A stretch of DNA of 25,498 nucleotides from positions 1 to 25,498 of the IMG/VR virus record IMGVR_UViG_3300034198_002782; one strand, written 5' to 3'. The position numbers and the translations under genes are program-made. Shown here one piece after another: positions 1 to 23,840 of the stretch; position 1 is the first letter of the stretch; the number at the start of each line of letters is the position of its first letter. The notes beneath the pieces are model-generated. The model saw nothing but the letters and a program-made list of their open reading frames with translations, had not been told where the DNA came from and did no database searches. The DNA is from a virus.

Positions 1-285
1 GAATGGAAGATCTAAAGCATGAAGATCTTTATTGTAGTCAGCCAACCAAGTAGTGTAGATATGGCTCATTTCGATAGTGCCGTTATCAACCAACTCCATT
101 AGTTGATCTTTGGTAATTTTTTTACCATCATTATACTTGTTAGTATAATCAGTTAGGGAAAGAACTTCGATGTCAAATGCACCATTAGTTTTTTCATTAA
201 CTTCAGCAGAAAATGCTTCTGCAACTTTTAAAAATAAGCCGATTGGTTCGTGGGCAATAACCCATTTTACATGCTTAGTAGTCAT
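1..285 (-). CDS. DctP-like TRAP solute-binding protein, 5' part only (runs off the window)
   Basis: The first 95 codons are visible, from ATG at 285-283 to the window edge. The translation resembles the start of a mature DctP-type substrate-binding subunit of TRAP transporters: a first strand (KHVKWVIAHEP), a helix with AEAFSAEVNEKTNGAFDIEVLS, then the helix LMELVDNGTIEMSH and a block ending LHALDLPF. This order matches the family pattern of FA..V.E.T.G...IEV, then a 'G.I.M' block and 'LDLPF'. In bacteria these proteins bind carboxylates or similar solutes in the periplasm. Here there is no signal peptide, since Met is followed directly by the mature-like part, so the protein should stay in the cytoplasm or be packed in the virion. 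A good ribosome site (AAGAGGAAAT) lies in the 14-base gap after the 96-residue gene, so it is the third gene of the radical SAM unit. The ligand cannot be predicted from this part. Confidence 0.7.
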   Translation of the reverse strand, partial: MTTKHVKWVIAHEPIGLFLKVAEAFSAEVNEKTNGAFDIEVLSLTDYTNKYNDGKKITKDQLMELVDNGTIEMSHIYTTWLADYNKDLHALDLPF

Positions 286-299
286 TCTTAATTTCCTCT

Positions 300-590
300 T
301 TATGGTCCAGTGGGTATAAAAACCCAATTCTCTCGTTTATTACTATAATCTATAACACGCTTCATAACGGGAACTTCATTATTTATAATCGTTTGCATCG
401 TGTTAATATCTGGGAGATCTTGTTTATTTAGGATAATTGAAACAGGGATAATCGTATCTTTCATAGAATATATTGGCGTATTTGAGTCATATTTAAACAC
501 AGACTGGATACGATGATATTCACCAGATTTCCCGTATCTTGGGAACCCATAAATCTCTATAATATATTCATCTAGAAAAGAATCACTCAT
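300..590 (-). CDS. Unrecognised 96-residue protein coupled to the radical SAM gene
   Basis: I do not recognise this protein. It has 96 residues, no cysteine, no membrane segment and no signal peptide. It has an acidic, aromatic start (residues 2-20), a hydrophobic middle (IIPVSIILNKQDLP, about 47-60) and a C-terminus ending VFIPTGP. Its ATG overlaps the stop of the radical SAM gene by one base (TAATG), so translation is almost certainly coupled and the two proteins probably act in the same process. It is small enough for a peptide-binding chaperone or leader-recognition protein, but I see no clear PqqD-like pattern. It could also be a substrate of the enzyme or an unrelated small virion protein. 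The next gene, DctP-like, starts 14 bases downstream. Confidence 0.75.
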   Translation of the reverse strand: MSDSFLDEYIIEIYGFPRYGKSGEYHRIQSVFKYDSNTPIYSMKDTIIPVSIILNKQDLPDINTMQTIINNEVPVMKRVIDYSNKRENWVFIPTGP

Positions 591-1978
591 TATACCGCCA
601 TAATAGGAATTACTTTTTTACCATTACGAGTTTTTTCTGGTTTACCATTCACCCACCAAAAGATATCTTTTCTATCTTCTCTTAATGGTCCATCAATATA
701 GATCGGTAGCCAGCCACCAGTCATAGTTTCAATTCCTGCAACAAAGGTAGTAATGTTATCACTGAATGCATTATTGCAAGTAGTTTCCCATAGAGGTCCA
801 TCTAAAAAGAAACACGCACCCTCACACATGTGTAAAACTGGGCATTTTGGGCATTCTAAACGATCACTCCAATGAGTCCCTGTTTTAACTTCAATATCTT
901 TTAAATTATCAATATGTCCAAGATGGTGGGATATGCCTGCTGGATTGACAGATACTGTAGATACATTCTGACATGTTAGGACATTTCCAAGAAGATCTAT
1001 AGATAAATTCTCTTTCTTATCCATACCACACTTTTGACCAAGGGTTTCTCTACGAGTTCCATTTTTAACTGAATTGATAAACTTATTAACTTTGTCATAA
1101 ATGATATTAAAATGTTTTACTTCACCAGATCTAATTTCATTGTAAGAACTTCTTCTAAATTCAATCTCAGATTCTTCACTAGTAAGAGAACTAGACAAAC
1201 CACCTTCATCATATGCGTCTACGAAAGCACCTTCACCAATTGTTAAATATTGAACATATTCAGCACCAAGATTCTTTGTTACTACATTAATAAAGAATTT
1301 TTCAATCTCAATCCTGCTTGTGTTTTTATTATTTAACATAGTGTTAAAACTAAATCTCATTTTAGGAGCAAGTTCTTTATATAATGCCCATATATGTTTA
1401 TTACGTTCTGGATCATCAAATGGATCAGGACCACGAACTGGCTGTCCTGGACCATCATGTGACATACCAATACTAAATCCATAATCAAGTAACCATTGAT
1501 TCTTTGCTTTATCAAACAATGAACCATTAGTAATAATACTAAACTTGGTGTTTGGATATTTTGCTTTAATCGCTTCTGCGAGTGGCTTCATTGTTTTCCA
1601 ATAAACAAATGGCTCACCACCCCAAAATTCAAAACGAGTTCCTTCACCAAGCCCATCTGAGCCACCTTTAAACCAGTTGGCCATATTAGAAACAAAAGGA
1701 TCTACGTCTGATGGATTAGTTTCGTCAGCGTGTGGGACGAATCTTTGATTACAATATTCACATTCATAATTGCAAGATAAACCCATAAGGATCTTGACTA
1801 CGTTTGGATCTTTGCTCTTGTCGATCTTAATCTGTTCTGGGATATGTTTCTGGACAATGGCTTCCTGAACAACCTTGGAACCATCTTCCCATAACAATTC
1901 GCTGGAAGCATTATCATATGTTATCTTCTTTTGTTCATTCGTAATTGGATGAACTACTGTCAAAATAAATTGTGTCAT
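590..1978 (-). CDS. Radical SAM/SPASM domain protein, likely peptide- or protein-modifying enzyme
   Basis: This is a 462-residue radical SAM enzyme with a SPASM extension. Counting from ATG at 1978, the iron-sulfur cluster motif is C69-x3-C73-x2-C76, inside ILMGLSCNYECEYC. The SAM-binding GGE motif is at 120-122 (FWGGEP). A complete SPASM pattern follows: C317-x13-G-x4-C336, then C376-x2-C379-x5-C385-x3-C389, and a last C401, so two auxiliary [4Fe-4S] clusters are predicted. Family members with this layout (sactipeptide, PqqE, thioether or epimerase maturases, anaerobic sulfatase activators) act on peptides or proteins. The N-terminal 60 residues are a separate small, probably beta-rich part that might bind substrate. 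The gene starts 22 bases after a late-type promoter box, downstream of a terminator, and its stop overlaps the start of the 96-residue gene. I prefer ATG 1978 over TTG 1981 because the GAGG ribosome site lies five bases from the ATG and only two from the TTG. The substrate is unknown. Confidence 0.92.
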   Translation of the reverse strand: MTQFILTVVHPITNEQKKITYDNASSELLWEDGSKVVQEAIVQKHIPEQIKIDKSKDPNVVKILMGLSCNYECEYCNQRFVPHADETNPSDVDPFVSNMANWFKGGSDGLGEGTRFEFWGGEPFVYWKTMKPLAEAIKAKYPNTKFSIITNGSLFDKAKNQWLLDYGFSIGMSHDGPGQPVRGPDPFDDPERNKHIWALYKELAPKMRFSFNTMLNNKNTSRIEIEKFFINVVTKNLGAEYVQYLTIGEGAFVDAYDEGGLSSSLTSEESEIEFRRSSYNEIRSGEVKHFNIIYDKVNKFINSVKNGTRRETLGQKCGMDKKENLSIDLLGNVLTCQNVSTVSVNPAGISHHLGHIDNLKDIEVKTGTHWSDRLECPKCPVLHMCEGACFFLDGPLWETTCNNAFSDNITTFVAGIETMTGGWLPIYIDGPLREDRKDIFWWVNGKPEKTRNGKKVIPIMAV

Positions 1979-1981
1979 CAA

Positions 1982-2827: not shown

Positions 2828-3676
2828 CTAGTTTATTGTCATTGCGTTTACATTATAATTTGGAAACACAACAGAATTCAGGCTTTGCATCAATTCGGTA
2901 TAAGAATTGGTATCATAAGTTACAAAGTTATTTGGATCAGTAAATGACACAATATTTAGATAATTTAAATGTCCAACTTTAAATGATATTTTATCGGATC
3001 CTTCAACTGAAGATTTTAATCCACGAACATATCCGACACCATTAGTTAGATTAATTCGTACTTTATCAAGAATTCCTGTTCTGGCATGAACATCAACTGA
3101 TTTAACATATGGCGCAGTGGTAATTTTATACTTAAAATATTCAGCATCATCATACGTCATTTCTTTAGTTACTGTAATTTTATCTAATAAAGGAATGACA
3201 TCACCATTCCATGAAACTTGTTCATTAGATGTTGTAAAATTATACTCATCTTTTGTGAAAACGATAACATCACAATCATCAAACGAGCCTTCAGGATTTC
3301 TTACTAATATCTGAATAGTAGCTGGTTGATCTAAAGTATATAATGAAGAAATAATAGGATTTCTAGTATTAGGAGAACGATTCAAATATGTAAGTGGTGA
3401 AATTACTATAAGATTATTTGCGCTAAGAACTTTTTTTTCTCTATCATTAGGTATTATAGAAAGCGATACCAAAGAATTTGGTACTATCGCACGCACGTCT
3501 TTTACAATTGAGAATGGTAAAGTCCAATCTGATATAACAGTAATCGCATTACCGAGAATTACTTCTAGTTTCGATGTTATAGCAGTAGGTGTAACATTAA
3601 CACTTAATCTAACTTGTTCTTCTACTGCTAAAAATTTTGATTTATTAAATTCTTTTTTTACGAGGATTTTACTCAT
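2828..3676 (-). CDS. Probable virion or fibre-associated protein, paralogue A (282 residues)
   Basis: This 282-residue protein of unknown function is the upstream member of a tandem paralogous pair. The two align through the core, at 51-58, 111-119, 155-165 and 200-217 here. Both end with a similar helix-like tail (SYTELMQSL here, SMTELNELL in the partner). This copy carries about 20 further C-terminal residues ending in FPNYNVNAMTIN and some additional internal residues. Alternating hydrophobic residues and many Thr, Val and Asn suggest an all-beta virion protein. The start has an AAAGGA ribosome site and lies 39 bases after the fibre stop, so it is probably on the same transcript as the fibre. 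I cannot assign it to a named family. Confidence 0.85.
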   Translation of the reverse strand: MSKILVKKEFNKSKFLAVEEQVRLSVNVTPTAITSKLEVILGNAITVISDWTLPFSIVKDVRAIVPNSLVSLSIIPNDREKKVLSANNLIVISPLTYLNRSPNTRNPIISSLYTLDQPATIQILVRNPEGSFDDCDVIVFTKDEYNFTTSNEQVSWNGDVIPLLDKITVTKEMTYDDAEYFKYKITTAPYVKSVDVHARTGILDKVRINLTNGVGYVRGLKSSVEGSDKISFKVGHLNYLNIVSFTDPNNFVTYDTNSYTELMQSLNSVVFPNYNVNAMTIN

Positions 3677-3715
3677 AGTATTCCTTTATTTGGTTGTAAT
3701 AGACTCATTATAGAA

Positions 3716-4858
3716 TTAGCAATTACAACGGCAATTTGGCGAGAAGTTACCATAGTTACCTAAGTTGTTGGCAAACTGAGAAAGATGTCCTGGCCAACCA
3801 GTTTGAGCATTATGCGCTTGGTGACCATATGAACTATTATGAGCATGCGGTGCAGTATTTGCGTGGGTTGAATTATTAGAATTATGAGCATGCGGTGCTG
3901 TTGCTGCATGCGAGGCATTATGTGCATTGGTTGCATTGGTTGCATGGGGCGATGCGCCAGCATGTCCACCGATGTTAGTAACAATAACTGCGCCAATCTG
4001 TCCTTGAACAGAACTAACAGGAACACTAACGATAACTGCACCAGTCTGTCCTTGAACAGAAGTAACTGAAGCATCAACAGTAATATTTCCAGCAACACCA
4101 GTACCATTGGTAATAGTAATACCACCACCAGCCACAATAGTTCTACCAGCAATAGTACCAGCTGCAGTTTTGACAACTATACCATATGATGATAAACCAG
4201 ATAATGATGTTAGTGTTGCATCTGCAGCCTGTACTTCAGTACCGATACGTAATTGAAGGAGTGCTGCAGCAGTACTATACGAAGCAGTTCCAGCCAAAGA
4301 TCTACCGAATGCTGTAAAGGCTGTAGTAGTAGCACTAGTTGTGCCATTAAAATAAGGAATAGTATCAGCAGCAGAAGTTGTTGCGCCCAAATTGCTTAGA
4401 CTTTGAGTCCACCCTTGTACATTGGTATTGATAACAAGACCAAGGTTACTACGAGCAGTGCTAGCATCAGTAGCACCAGTACCACCACCAGCGATTGCTA
4501 CAGTATAGTTCAAACTAGAAGCAATAGAAGCCGTACCAGTTAGAGCAGCAGTAATAGTACCAGCGGAGAAGTTACCAGAAGCATCACGAGCAACGATAGT
4601 GTTGGCAGTGTTAGCATTAGTAGCACTACGAGCACCAGAGTTAAAGGTCATGGTATCCGAGTTTAAACCACCAGCTTGACTATATCCAGTTAGCGAGTTT
4701 ACTTTGGATAGAACGTCTGCGGCAGTATAACTAGCTGCAGTAAGACCAGTCGCAAGGGCTGTATTAATGTTTGAGAAGTTGTTATCTACTTCTGTATTAG
4801 TAAGAGGACTACCTTTAGTCGATCTTAACGTAATAGATGCGGATGTTATATTTGCCAT
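3716..4858 (-). CDS. Tail fibre protein with His-rich region and Cys-x-Cys-x-Cys C-terminus
   Basis: This is a 380-residue tail fibre protein. The N-terminus (ITLRSTKGSPLTNTEVDNNF, residues 9-28) is a common opening of marine phage fibres and probably joins the baseplate. The shaft is rich in Thr, Ala, Gly and Asn, with a typical AGGGTGATDASTARSNLG segment (123-140) and two copies of SVQGQxGAVIV (about 267 and 283). Residues 299-358 hold twelve histidines, including two His-Ala-His pairs at 323/325 and 338/340 in a repeated TAPHAHNS. The protein then runs through a Gly/Asn segment to NCRCNC. C376, C378 and C380 are the only cysteines. In T4 gp37, His-x-His pairs bind iron inside the trimeric fibre tip, so this region may be a metal-containing needle. 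A radical SAM gene lies about 1.7 kb downstream, which makes a modified tip another possibility. The receptor is unknown. Confidence 0.85.
   Translation of the reverse strand: MANITSASITLRSTKGSPLTNTEVDNNFSNINTALATGLTAASYTAADVLSKVNSLTGYSQAGGLNSDTMTFNSGARSATNANTANTIVARDASGNFSAGTITAALTGTASIASSLNYTVAIAGGGTGATDASTARSNLGLVINTNVQGWTQSLSNLGATTSAADTIPYFNGTTSATTTAFTAFGRSLAGTASYSTAAALLQLRIGTEVQAADATLTSLSGLSSYGIVVKTAAGTIAGRTIVAGGGITITNGTGVAGNITVDASVTSVQGQTGAVIVSVPVSSVQGQIGAVIVTNIGGHAGASPHATNATNAHNASHAATAPHAHNSNNSTHANTAPHAHNSSYGHQAHNAQTGWPGHLSQFANNLGNYGNFSPNCRCNC
3833..3901 (-). repeat. Two 45-base-spaced repeats in the fibre tip coding TAPHAHNS
   Basis: A 24-base unit coding for TAPHAHNS occurs at 3901-3878 and again at 3856-3833, with near-identical bases in the core. 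The period of 45 bases equals 15 residues. It lies in the His-rich region of the fibre and could allow the number of His-x-His pairs to change by recombination. Confidence 0.75.
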
Positions 4859-4874
4859 TTAAGGTTTCCTTTGG

Positions 4875-5099
4875 TCAATCTTTTTTCAATATTTGAAGAA
4901 GCAATGATTTAATGTCCTGCAATTCATTCTTAATGTTATTTATATCTTCAGTATGTTTAGAAATTTCGGCTTCTCGCTCCTCAGCTTTACGCTGTCTAGC
5001 GATATATTCTTCATATTCAGTTCTATTAGTATTTAGGATAGCACCAGTAGTGGTATCCCTAACTAATCCTTCATGACCGAGGACTTTTAAATATTGCAT
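4875..5099 (-). CDS. Small coiled-coil virion-region protein (74 residues)
   Basis: This protein has 74 residues. The first 35 form a compact part with LVRDTTTGAILNTN (12-25), which I have the impression of meeting often in small proteins near marine phage structural genes but cannot name. Residues 36-74 are charged, heptad-like and rich in Glu, Lys, Ile and Leu (ending IKSLLLQILKKD), which indicates a coiled coil, probably an oligomerisation or docking helix. It begins one base after the stop of the 2240-residue gene with no visible Shine-Dalgarno sequence, so it is probably translated by reinitiation. The fibre gene follows after 16 bases. A linker between fibre and baseplate is plausible but unproven. 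Confidence 0.8.
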   Translation of the reverse strand: MQYLKVLGHEGLVRDTTTGAILNTNRTEYEEYIARQRKAEEREAEISKHTEDINNIKNELQDIKSLLLQILKKD

Positions 5100-5100
5100 T

Positions 5101-8100
5101 TTATGGACATGCTATAAGTCTAAAATCTCTGATAATAGGAGGAGTTGCAGTATTAGTTCCCTGCATAACAATCTTTATCTGAGCAGTATCAAAAGACGGA
5201 ATTCCTGTTAGAGTATAAGTTATATCACTAAATGCAGTATTTCCTGCATCTACTTTAACAATACTATTATCTGGTTGTAATAATGTATATTTAGTATATT
5301 GTAACTGTGTATTATCGCCTGTGCATGACTTATAATAGATTAAGACATTTGATTCATTAGGGATATTTGCTGAAATCATAACTCTTAGATAAGTTGAAGA
5401 ATTAGCAAATTTCACTGGGGTAGTTACATATTTACTTAAAGTAGAACTTCCTACTGGAGCAATTTCATCAGCAAATAATATTCTAGAAGTAACTGTAGTT
5501 CCTGTTACTGCAGCTTCTGCTGTAAATGTATTTGTAACATAAACAGTACCAGTAGTACCGTCATCTGTATATCCAGTAACTAAGAATGTTCCATTGTTTG
5601 TAGAAGTAGTTGCTGAAGCAACAGTAATATATTTACCAATTCCAAGCTGAGCCATTGCAGATTTAACTGCTGCTACTGTTGAAGTAATTATACCAGAAGA
5701 TCCAACATATAATAATGTAGCAGTCCCGTTAACTGCAGTTCCACTAGTATGGGATGGATATGCTGTTGAAGAGGAAGAAGTAGTTCCTGCAACAGTAACT
5801 TGGTAAAGATTACCAGAATAGTATAACAATGATCCAATGTTAACAGCAGTAGAAGTAGCCCATAAAGTACCAGAATTACCAAACGAGAATGCGCCAGTAG
5901 AACCAGACCAAACAGGAATAGTATCAATTGCTGCTACGTTTGTATTAGATTCAGTTGGTAGATTTAATTTATTACCAATTGCAATTAAACTAGAACGTGT
6001 CATATCAATTACTGGTGATACTGCATCATTAGTTGTTGATATTTGAGCAGAGAAAGTTACTGATTTAGAACCCGATTGATTTGTAATTTCATTAATATTT
6101 GAAGAAATCATTCTTGGAGATATAAACTTATTATTCTCTTTATTCAATACTGGAGTAAATGTAGGATCTATTTGATATGGGGATTGACCACCATCTACAG
6201 ATTTACCAGAAGTTGTTTTAATAGAGAATGATGTAGTAGTATCTGGGAAAGACTGAGTTTGGATAGATGGATTAATAATATCATATTGAATATTTCTAGA
6301 CGCTTTAATAAAAGCACCACCAGTATATCCACTTACAGTAGCATTAGCTGTTGTAGTAATTGTGTAGCAATTATTATCTACATTACTAATTACTGAAGAT
6401 TTAAAAATTTGATTAGCAGGAATACCATTAATTGGTCCAACATATTGATAGCTGGATCCAGCTGCCATTGCAGTAGTAGCATTGTTAGATAATGTTAACG
6501 AAGTGTCGCTGGCAACTGCAGTAACTGTTCCAATATAAACATCTTGAGAATTATAGATGTTAGTGCCAACAATCGCTTCTGTTGTAAACTTAGTTCCAAC
6601 GCCAGTGATAGTAGTGCTTGATATAGAAGCAGTAATAGTTCCAGTACCTGGATCATTAGCATTTACAGCAGAGATATCTACAGTAGAACCAGTACCACCA
6701 TTAATAGGCATACCGTGATCATAGTGCCATACACGAACAATATTAGAACCAGCAGTAGTTTCGAATGGGTCAACTGCTAAAGTATCATATGGAACTAAGT
6801 CGTTAACAAATTCTACATCACCAATAACTTGTGTATTAAAGACTGCGCGATTAAGTGTAAACTTAATATCAGCACTATCATCTGCTGTCCAAGTAGAGGC
6901 ATTCTGAGATTTAAACATAACACCAGCATATGGTTGCTGAGATATTGAACGTCCAGATCCTGGAATAGTATCGCCCATATAAGAGATCCAAACTTTATAA
7001 TTATTTGAATCTGAAACTAAAACGAAACAATATTCAGTATCATCTCTTACATAAACTGGGGTTTCAAAAGTAAATGTAGTTGGTGTATCGAATGTTGGGT
7101 AAGTATTACCATCTGGTAATTGAACTGTATTAGCAGAAAGAACAACATCTTTTGCTTGTTTAGTTACAACGCTGAATGGAAGAATAGATTTTCCAGGAGT
7201 ACCATTTACCATCTCACGAAGCTGTAATGTTACTGGAAGATTTGAATCTTTACTACCAAAGAAAATATCAATACTAGTTAAAAATGCACCCCCCTTCTGC
7301 TGAACTAAAAATGATTGGGCAAGAGGATCATAATAAGCATTACCACCTTTAGTAATCGTAGAGGTTTGATATAGAGTTTGATTTTCTGAGACCTGCTCTT
7401 GAACAATTTGTGCATTTCTAACTGCATTAATAGTTTGCTGAACATTAGTTAAAGTGCCTGTTGCTTCATATGCAGCAAGACCACGAGAAGAATAGTTACC
7501 ATTGTATGTATTTGAATCAACTAATTTTAATTCACGTTTGCCAGTACGGAAACGAACAGAATCTGTATTTGGAATATTAAAGATAAATTCTAGATCACCA
7601 ATACTGTTAGTTGTAAAATTAGAAGCTGGGGTTATTGAAGTTACAGTTGCTGTTGCTCCGCTGATAGATCCAGTAATAATATCACCAGTTCCATTGGCAG
7701 CAGTAGTTAATATTGTTCCAATTAAATTAACGATACTAAGACACTTATTATTGTTGGCATCAATATAAGAATTAACAACAACAGCAGAAGCACCAGAAGC
7801 AGTTGTAATTACGTCACCAGTATTTAAACATACTTGTGAGTCAGTACCAATTCTTCTCTGAACTGAAGTAGATTGAGAACCTACATTAGTCTTAAAATCA
7901 AAAGATCCATTAAGATTAGTATAGATTAATTTCTGAGCAATTGAACAGTAAGGTGTAATATCAACACTATCAAAGTATGGATAGAATTGAGTATTTGGTT
8001 TTAATTTATGTGCCTGAACAAGAATATTTCTTGAACGGATATATGGAATAATTGCAGTAGAAACTACTCTATCGCCCTGACTTTCATAATCAGTTTTTAA

Positions 8101-20726: not shown

Positions 20727-23700
20727 TTATACCTTTTTCGCTTGTGGCGGTGCGCCACCATCTACTAATACAAATCCAGTAGGATATCCTTTAGCATCTC
20801 TCTGATAAACTTTATCATTTACCATAGTGAATCCCATTTTTCTATTTCCCTTAGATGTATATCCAGTATGAATCCAACATTGACCATTAAATCTATATTC
20901 TAAAATTAATTGATCATAATTAACTAATTTATCCATCTTCTGAACTAAATCATATGTTTTATTATATTTGTCTGGCAGTAGTAAAGCAATATCTACAGCT
21001 TGCCCCTTACAATGAGAAGAAGTTGGGCTTTCTTGGGCTAGAACACCTTTCAATCTATATCCTGATGTAATAGTCCATTGTTTTGTGTAGCCACCAATTC
21101 CACCTGGAAGAATACCTGCGTCAAGATATACTTCTAATACATTTGTGCACACATTTGCTAAATTACAAACAATTTCTTGTACAGTATAAACCCTATCTGG
21201 TCCTTTGTCTGTATCTTTTAATATCTGATCTACCAATTTATGATCTGGACTACAAATCAGCATACCAAGAGTAAAGTTCTTTGACAATCTATAATCTTTT
21301 GGGAAGTTAGTTGTATTATAGATTATTTTGCAATCTGCAGGAACCTGCTCATTTTTACCACCAGTTGGGGCTGCTGGTGGTTCTGTAACAACTGCTGGTG
21401 GTGGATTGGGAACTCCAGTTGTCTGCGCTTGATCATTACTAAATTTACGTCCTTCTGGAGTAGCATAATCCTCTGGGGTTTCAACTGATTGTGCTTGCTC
21501 AGTTTGACGATCAGGTGGTTGTAATGCAGGCATAATAGCATTAACTGGATTACCAGCTGGAGGAGGAGCTAAATCAAAATCAGCGACATCTTGACCACCT
21601 GACGCACCATTACCGAACTGACCTTCTGCATAATCAGCATGGAGTGTACCCCCTGCTTTAATATCCATACTAGCAGTGGATTCCAATTGAAGCGCATTTG
21701 ATTTTATACTAGCACCCTGTCCTGCTTGGAATAGTAAATTATTTGCAGATTTAGTAGTCATATTATCAGCAGCAATATGTAAACTTCCTACTGCTTTAAT
21801 TTGCATATTTCCACCGACTGCAATATCTAAATCGTTTGCTGCGCCGATAGAAAGGTTATTACCAACAGTAACAGTGGCATCTTGTTCTACTTGGATATTA
21901 GCATCGCTTCTAGCATATATGTTTGTATTACCATCAACAGTAATATTACAGTCACCACCTACATGGATGTAACCATTACGTTCCATTAGAATAAAATTCT
22001 CTCCAATTATGTAGTTTATCTGACTACCAGTTGGATCTATTTCAGTATATGTTCCTGCTCTATGATACGTATGAATACGTTCTTGTCCTGGAGTGTCATC
22101 AAATTCTTGGACATGTCCAGATTCAGTTTCCATAACTTTATTGTATGGATATTTTGCGCCATAAGCAGATAATGGTTGATCCCAAGAACCTGAATCATTG
22201 GCAGTTGGAACCCCAGATCTTCTATTAGCATCTTTCTTTTCTACAATAGTTCCCTCGAGGATACCACGAGCAAGACGATTTGTATCTGGTTCATTAATAT
22301 AATCTTTTAATGGGTACTTATTATTTGGATCTCTAAATCCAGTATTGTCTGTTCCGCTCTTTACGCTTTCAGGAGATGGTCCAGGTGTTACTGGAGCATC
22401 ATCTTTTGGTGGCGCTGGTGCTGGTGTATCTGCGCTTTTATCAACAGAACCAGTTGCTTGTGAACCATAAAAATACTCATAATATTTTAATTTACGAGCA
22501 GCAATATCTGGTGAGTTTACACCAACTGCTTTTTTTGCCGCATAGAAATATCCAGGGTGGTCAGTTTCTCGTGTTCCTTTTGGAACTCTGTCTTTAATAT
22601 AAAGAGCAGCAACTAAAGCTGATACATTAATATCATTATCAAGTGAATCAGGATTATTAATTAGATCTAAATTAAGACCCATTTTATTTGCCATATCCTG
22701 ATATTTTTTATAGTTCCCTTTACCAGTCAATTGGATAAAACCACGTCCATAATATTTACCACCATCAGCATCTGTTTGATTTCCTAAAAATCCTTTACCA
22801 CGAGTTGATGGTCCATATACCCATGAGAAAAATTGTTCTCTAGTGACACCTTTCTTTGGTGCTTCAGCATATTGTTTGGCAGTAGCATCAGTTGCAAAAG
22901 AGAATATCTGTTTTAAACGAGATTCGCTATAATTATATCCTTCTCGTTGAGGAATCCATGTAGTTTCACCACCAGCAATCGCAAGCAATGAACATTTTTG
23001 TTCTTTAGTTGTCAACCCTACTTTATCACAAGCAGCAATTAATGCTTTAATACCTTCAGATGCTTTACTTGCATTAGAAGATTCTTTTGGTGGTGGCACT
23101 GTTGGTATTGAAGTATTTGTATTTGTTTGAGCGATTGGGGCAGGGGTTGTTGGAGTAGCTTCTGGTTGTGCTGTTTTTACTGGTTGCCCTGAACCATCTA
23201 CTACAGGTTGACCAGAAGATGTTGTTACAACACCCTCAACTTTACTCTGATTTACTGCGTCTAAATTGGTCGGAGGATCTTTAAATGTTATAATGTTTTC
23301 GCCATAACCAATAACTGATTCACTAATTGTTATTTGTGTACCAGAATCTATTGTAACAATTGTACAACTATCAGATAACCCAAAACCAACAACTTTCATA
23401 TTGGCTCTAAGGGGTGTTGTTAAATTAGTGCGACCATTTTCTTCATCAACAAATGTTAATTGTTTTCCAGAAACTGGACCAACAATAGTTCTTAAAACAA
23501 TATCTTTTGTTCTATATTCTTGAATTGCGGTTGCGCTGTCATCATCTGTAATAGCAACTGGCGCAGAAGAGATTCCACCAATAGTACCAAATATCAATGG
23601 CTGTTGCATTGATTCATCAGCAAACATAATAATAACAGTAGTACCTTCAACTGGACCAACAGGAGTTGATCCAATACCATTCATTGCTGCAGAACCAATT

Positions 23701-23840
23701 GACTGGATTGGTGTTGCCCAAGGAAGCTGATCAGTTGGTAGCTGATTTTTGTCGTGGGTGTGTAATCCAACAATTCGAACTTGGCATCGACCAAGTTTTA
23801 ATGGATCTGAACGACTTTCAACTATACCAGTATAAAACAT
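20727..23840 (-). CDS. 5: gp5-type tail spike with GH19-like and M15-like peptidoglycan hydrolase domains
   Basis: This is a 1037-residue spike protein, against 575 in T4 gp5. Residues 1-95 are the gp5 OB fold (VESRSDPLKLGRCQVRIVGL; PVEGTTVIIMFADESMQQPL). Residues 262-459 form a GH19 chitinase/endolysin-like domain in the place where T4 has its lysozyme: AIAGGETTW with likely catalytic E292, NYSESRL (303-309) and YGRGFIQLTGKGNY (364-377). Residues 612-740 are the beta-helix needle of octapeptide-like repeats. After a Pro-rich linker, residues 835-1037 resemble peptidase M15 (D,D- or L,D-cleaving): SGYR (926-929), zinc ligands H943 and D950 in SSHCKGQAVDI, and ILEY...WIHTGY with likely catalytic E981 and third ligand H991. 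So both glycan strands and peptide stems may be cut during entry. Pro-rich linkers (about 220-255, 470-490, 755-830) separate the domains. The start overlaps the hub gene stop (TAATG). Confidence 0.93.
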   Translation of the reverse strand: MFYTGIVESRSDPLKLGRCQVRIVGLHTHDKNQLPTDQLPWATPIQSIGSAAMNGIGSTPVGPVEGTTVIIMFADESMQQPLIFGTIGGISSAPVAITDDDSATAIQEYRTKDIVLRTIVGPVSGKQLTFVDEENGRTNLTTPLRANMKVVGFGLSDSCTIVTIDSGTQITISESVIGYGENIITFKDPPTNLDAVNQSKVEGVVTTSSGQPVVDGSGQPVKTAQPEATPTTPAPIAQTNTNTSIPTVPPPKESSNASKASEGIKALIAACDKVGLTTKEQKCSLLAIAGGETTWIPQREGYNYSESRLKQIFSFATDATAKQYAEAPKKGVTREQFFSWVYGPSTRGKGFLGNQTDADGGKYYGRGFIQLTGKGNYKKYQDMANKMGLNLDLINNPDSLDNDINVSALVAALYIKDRVPKGTRETDHPGYFYAAKKAVGVNSPDIAARKLKYYEYFYGSQATGSVDKSADTPAPAPPKDDAPVTPGPSPESVKSGTDNTGFRDPNNKYPLKDYINEPDTNRLARGILEGTIVEKKDANRRSGVPTANDSGSWDQPLSAYGAKYPYNKVMETESGHVQEFDDTPGQERIHTYHRAGTYTEIDPTGSQINYIIGENFILMERNGYIHVGGDCNITVDGNTNIYARSDANIQVEQDATVTVGNNLSIGAANDLDIAVGGNMQIKAVGSLHIAADNMTTKSANNLLFQAGQGASIKSNALQLESTASMDIKAGGTLHADYAEGQFGNGASGGQDVADFDLAPPPAGNPVNAIMPALQPPDRQTEQAQSVETPEDYATPEGRKFSNDQAQTTGVPNPPPAVVTEPPAAPTGGKNEQVPADCKIIYNTTNFPKDYRLSKNFTLGMLICSPDHKLVDQILKDTDKGPDRVYTVQEIVCNLANVCTNVLEVYLDAGILPGGIGGYTKQWTITSGYRLKGVLAQESPTSSHCKGQAVDIALLLPDKYNKTYDLVQKMDKLVNYDQLILEYRFNGQCWIHTGYTSKGNRKMGFTMVNDKVYQRDAKGYPTGFVLVDGGAPPQAKKV

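Follow-up and report, generated by a model that had tools for sequence, protein, structure and literature searches.

A gene at one end of the virus record IMGVR_UViG_3300034198_002782 encodes a member of the DctP family, as established by sequence, fold and a conserved Arg, from which the export signal that is a feature of working TRAP binding subunits is absent. Bacteria normally export DctP proteins, which catch small acids for import. The phage protein probably binds its ligand in the cytosol. We infer for it a cytosolic site, a carboxylate ligand and a partnership with an AsnB-like amide-forming ligase, a combination to which we give somewhat less than an even chance.

The sequence analysed, referred to here as the window, is the whole record, positions 1–25,498 (25,498 bases). 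The features discussed are:

1–285, minus strand: signal-less DctP-type solute-binding protein, first 95 codons (Pfam DctP 28.7 bits; 96% identity to L001)
286–339, minus strand: leader of the DctP gene, with an AGAGGA ribosome-binding site and an in-frame TAA (339–337), from direct reading of the sequence
300–590, minus strand: small conserved protein of 96 amino acids (family cl2), encoded directly before DctP in cassettes of the tail type (cluster found in 47 of the first loci)
590–1981, minus strand: radical SAM/SPASM protein with peptide maturases as its closest match, a neighbour that we do not regard as working with DctP (49 of 56 radical SAM loci lack DctP)

Beyond the DctP gene, the record is occupied by a T4-like baseplate and tail-fibre cluster. 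It includes a large baseplate-hub-like protein (20727–23840, minus strand) in which inspection by eye suggested embedded lysozyme-like and C-terminal peptidase-like domains.

A DctP-type protein by sequence, fold and carboxylate-binding Arg

The window holds the 5′ end of the gene (285..1, minus strand), which runs off the end of the contig after 95 codons and encodes MTTKHVKWVIAHEP...ALDLPF (95 amino acids). Pfam DctP matches residues 20–95 of this fragment with 28.7 bits (cut-off 23.4). A relative with 96% identity over these 95 amino acids, L001, has a complete gene of 315 amino acids that matches Pfam DctP (PF03480) with 138.6 bits (E 3e-40, residues 20–301, cut-off 23.4) and NCBIfam TRAP_S1 with 104 bits (cut-off 50); against TIGR00787, whose cut-off of 175 is stricter, it remains below the threshold at 104.7. 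The identification of the fragment as a DctP-like solute-binding protein, first made from the letters of the window, thus holds at full length. The protein begins at the mature first strand of the TRAP solute-binding pattern, and its annotated start is correct because the N-termini align across all relatives.

The AlphaFold2 model of DctP is confident (pLDDT 95) and displays the two-lobed fold of TRAP solute-binding proteins, with a TM of about 0.85 to many solved examples. A Foldseek search of the PDB placed TRAP binding proteins at the top of 681 matches at E≤0.001; the 50 matches listed are all TRAP solute-binding proteins, with a TM to the query of about 0.75–0.87. In alignments with the four best PDB solute-binding proteins, R157 falls on their conserved Arg. 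Both R157 and R137 are kept in 64 of 65 distinct proteins, and E197 and H220 in all 65. The position of R157 in the window copy lies beyond the contig end, and the evidence for the carboxylate-binding Arg comes from its relatives. R157 is equated with Arg-147 of SiaP through a motif shared in the PDB-hit alignments rather than by direct superposition; Arg-147, which occurs in 96.8% of DctP solute-binding proteins, acts as the selectivity filter for carboxylates (PMC4646407). The full-length match, the fold and this Arg are all shared with DctP-type TRAP solute-binding proteins (PF03480; SiaP, IseP, DctP). The phage protein differs from them in having no signal peptide and, in nearly all loci, no adjoining DctQM, and a conserved GESTY motif stands at the position where G-x-E-N predominates in the aligned PDB relatives. 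At one locus (L059, 6992–8011), a second, diverged DctP is located directly behind the first and appears to be without the carboxylate-binding Arg motif.

Scanning IMG/VR with the first 95 amino acids yielded 63 loci, and a profile scan yielded 297 relatives, of which the best 80 were kept. Complete relatives are mostly 313–315 amino acids long, with the stop codon at the expected place. Judged from codon comparison, the family is under purifying selection, the median dN/dS over 1,075 DctP pairs being 0.15, a rough figure with dS near saturation. This selection and the intact pocket rule out a decayed host copy. Because the fold and the carboxylate-binding Arg are intact and under purifying selection, DctP should still close around a small carboxylate. 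The median distance among DctP proteins is 0.18, compared to 0.5–0.7 for cl2, the ligase and the radical SAM protein; such stronger conservation, by far, than that of the neighbours fits recent spread, a constrained ligand, or both.

A tblastn search of 50,697 phage records with DctP returned only remote DctPs of ~25% identity, and no cultured phage with the gene. The belief voiced in the sequence-only reading that phage proteins with similar annotations exist is borne out by BFVD, where two fragments of 159 and 162 amino acids carry the automatic transporter name ‘TRAP transporter solute receptor DctP/TeaA [uncultured Caudovirales phage]’. These phage fragments (A0A6J7WI33 and A0A6J7WKL0) have 48% and 38% identity to the protein, respectively, and the same fold. 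The open-access literature on DctP, TRAP or TTT in phages yielded a SUP05 virus contig with a tctA domain hit and nothing else (PMC4164917). No paper describing a signal-less phage DctP or the genes around it was found in that open-access literature, which is part of the whole literature.

Loss of the export signal

The window copy has its in-frame stop, TAA (339–337), 17 codons before the ATG, and the stretch between the two, TRELGFYTHWTIKRKLR, has no hydrophobic core. An in-frame stop lies 0–18 codons upstream of the DctP start in all 63 of the first loci. Since the frame is closed so near the start in the window and in every one of these loci, no signal peptide is possible, as had been claimed for the window, and a missed upstream start hiding a signal is ruled out; the judgement is based on frame limits and hydrophobicity. 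The maximum N-terminal hydrophobicity of DctP is 1.62, compared to a median of 2.46 for 13 TctC-like solute-binding proteins of the same phages. These TctC-like proteins and the DctPQM set at L042/L043, in which the DctP accompanying DctQM has a signal-like N-terminus, are good internal controls for signal loss. The signal peptide is missing throughout a branch of about 300 viral contigs, and the protein is therefore not an ordinary TRAP subunit.

Cellular relatives are few. A scan of 84,980 species genomes found 23 loci. Signal-less relatives amid ordinary chromosomal genes were identified in two Bacteriovoracaceae (L065, L073) and one Gammaproteobacteria MAG (L066), and a further one (L068) on a short, phage-like contig of a Methylococcaceae MAG. 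Relatives with signal-like N-termini also occur in Bdellovibrionota. Phylogenetically, the phage proteins and the four signal-less cellular ones form one branch (support 97/96) beside the signal-bearing Bdellovibrionota proteins; because the branch is single, one loss of the signal explains all of them. Another signal-less, phage-like protein, L071, forms a long branch in a different part of the tree, where the signal may have been lost independently. Within the order of the Bacteriovoracaceae relatives are carried by 8 of 129 genomes, and within that of the Methylococcaceae by the starting genome alone among 301; the signal-less family is therefore mainly viral.

The three chromosomal proteins share the branch and the missing signal peptide with the phage proteins, at 44–47% identity. 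Instead of an AsnB-like ligase, their genes have beside them a gene for an MFS carrier of the oxalate/formate type and one that is oxygenase-like. The carrier, which the cellular relatives follow, scores above the oxalate/formate antiporter cut-off. The oxygenase-like protein, which also precedes them, has no Pfam hit and shows an HxD..H..R pattern like that of 2OG oxygenases. These neighbours agree with an intracellular role on a small acid.

The AsnB-like neighbour and the proposed role of DctP in the infected cell

Gene neighbours were counted in 53 dereplicated DctP loci with flanks of at least 1.8 kb. An AsnB-like gene is present in 47 of them, no more than two genes away from DctP in 44, and none is found nearby in the other 6. 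In all 18 long records (81–345 kb), but for ties of rank, the distance between DctP and the strongest AsnB-like match is 50 bases to 1.9 kb; the profile used was built partly from DctP neighbours, which favours finding neighbours. Some DctP phages carry several AsnB-like genes, so part of the adjacency could be background. The neighbours occur in differing gene arrangements and belong to differing AsnB-like subfamilies. In a mirror-tree test, distances among DctP proteins showed almost no correlation with those among its neighbours (rho 0.21 for the AsnB-like protein), and strict co-evolution is therefore not seen.

The AsnB-like protein has a nearly invariant SGGxDS (PP-loop) motif, and the folds closest to its model are those of asparagine, carbapenam and beta-lactam synthetases, in a weak Foldseek match (E 2e-4, TM about 0.3–0.4). 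It scores under the Pfam Asn_synthase cut-off (e.g., L001 7011–8072) and is too short for an additional glutaminase domain. Outside tail clusters, a second common arrangement consists of cl17, the AsnB-like gene, a TctC-like solute-binding protein, DctP and DUF2061, with members sometimes missing. At L012 (3–2108) and L039 (6981–10071), an AMP-ligase, a short-chain dehydrogenase and a beta-keto acid cleavage enzyme (BKACE) lie beside the AsnB-like/DctP pair.

According to the reading we prefer, a complete DctP-type (PF03480) protein whose export signal has been permanently lost would act in the cytoplasm of the infected cell, where its intact fold and Arg would allow closing around a small carboxylate. 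DctP would capture this acid in the cytosol, as a carrier or substrate buffer for the adjacent AsnB-like PP-loop enzyme. The acid would be the substrate or the product of that enzyme, a putative synthetase-only ligase expected to use ATP to activate a carboxylate for amide formation. The DctP gene would travel as phage cargo, which in T4-like phages is often inserted between tail-fibre genes.

Known phage sponge proteins sequester cyclic nucleotides. DctP could, with a low but real probability, serve a comparable purpose: in the cytosol it would sequester a host carboxylate, be it a signal, a defence messenger or a regulatory metabolite, and thereby blunt a host response. It would then resemble the second-messenger sponges of phages as a cytosolic, stand-alone small-molecule binder, although their folds and ligands differ from those of DctP. 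A stand-alone binder whose pocket hardly varies and whose sequence is strongly conserved in diverse phages, next to neighbours that diverge much faster, is consistent with such a role. However, PADLOC assigned no defence family to DctP, cl2, cl17 or the AsnB-like protein, relatives are also found on chromosomes beside a carboxylate carrier, and we know of no counterpart defence system.

TRAP solute-binding proteins close upon ligand binding, and partners can recognise the closed forms. A slightly less probable role is therefore that of a cytosolic sensor or regulator, in which ligand-bound DctP would bind a phage protein (e.g., cl2, cl17 or the AsnB-like protein) and report the level of a metabolite. 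A ligand sensor was already among the suggestions of the sequence-only reading. The cl2 gene, whose product (590..300) had no match in a Pfam search, directly precedes DctP in two different contexts, that is, in the tail-type cassette and outside it (L060, L234–L242), yet no output domain was recognised in DctP or its neighbours.

It is unlikely that DctP is a transport helper that enters the periplasm in some unknown way and supplies a TRAP transporter of the host or the phage. The same phages do carry TctC-like solute-binding proteins and TctA, and a whole DctPQM set is present at L042/L043. Against this stand the closed reading frame, which leaves no possible signal peptide, and the other exported components of the same genomes, which keep signal-like N-termini. 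DctQ/DctM partner genes are moreover absent beside the signal-less DctP in all loci read except L042/L043. A transporter operon was rejected, as at these two contigs DctQM comes with a separate DctP that has a signal-like N-terminus. The complete TRAP set there (3058–5940; DctQ, DctM and the signal-like DctP) adjoins the signal-less DctP and three AsnB-like genes. On the viral contig L061 (1909–5959), the surroundings of a signal-less DctP include a gene for a TctA membrane subunit and two SBP-like genes whose products have signal-like N-termini.

The tail-type cassette and the radical SAM gene

The tail-type cassette has the order fibre, cl11 or cl14/cl12, radical SAM, cl2, DctP, AsnB-like, tail fibres. 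In the window and about 40 relatives, DctP is thus found between the tail-fibre genes of a T4-like late cluster, a position that could suggest a virion or tail component reusing the DctP fold. We consider this as improbable as the transport role, because many relatives are located outside any tail cluster, beside metabolic genes, and phages with the same tail cassette exist without DctP. The sequence-only reading had proposed work inside the cell or in the particle; the intracellular half is the best reading of the present data, and the particle half is weakened.

The same reading placed DctP behind the radical SAM gene and proposed that it binds the product of that enzyme. The two genes are close together at 43 of the first 63 loci as well as in the window, but in the window DctP is not directly behind, as the 96-amino-acid gene (590..300) intervenes. 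Their distributions are separate. DctP is present in 7 of 56 radical SAM loci and absent from 49 (some of these loci are cut short); conversely, the radical SAM gene is found in 30 of 53 DctP loci and missing from 23, so that DctP homologues do not always adjoin it. In L106–L108 and L110–L112, an empty gap of 68 bases separates the radical SAM gene from a tail gene; with the DctP segment in place, that tail gene is at a distance of ~2.4 kb. The separate distributions and this empty site speak against a functional partnership, which we reject. In L010/L105 and L118 the order is reversed, the DctP segment coming first, and the enzyme resembles peptide maturases, not small-molecule enzymes; binding of its product by DctP is largely refuted and highly improbable.

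The radical SAM protein matches the viperin models of PADLOC weakly. A tail-fibre-like protein of the window (3716–4858, minus strand) has a C-terminal His-rich repeat region and ends in ...SPNCRCNC, and in its relatives the final residues are NCNCACNC or CNCNCNC. Fibres with such ends accompany the radical SAM/SPASM gene also in phages without DctP. In one phage branch, a protein of 122–128 amino acids very rich in NCNC/CAC repeats is encoded between the fibre and the radical SAM gene (L019 2607–2993, L022 2781–3161, L028 2667–3035 and 14 more). The radical SAM/SPASM protein (590–1981) looks like a peptide-modifying enzyme acting on the Cys-rich fibre end. Relatives of ~40% identity occur in the cultured Achromobacter phages 2-1 (L102, 6004–7362) and JWF, where their annotation reads radical SAM protein or sulfatase maturase; these phages offer a laboratory system for the fibre-modification question.

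Annotation pipelines would take the DctP gene of the window for part of a transporter and list it among the nutrient-uptake genes of phages. If cytosolic carboxylate binding beside an amide-forming enzyme is true, the gene points to a small-molecule function carried by phages, of which the literature searched offered no description, and the binding protein would be a direct handle for finding the molecule. More tentatively, the signal-less proteins may represent a largely viral family of cytosolic binders, derived from a transporter subunit minus its export signal, that during infection either makes or controls a small amide together with the AsnB-like ligase or sequesters a host carboxylate signal, which would constitute a new class of phage small-molecule-handling system.
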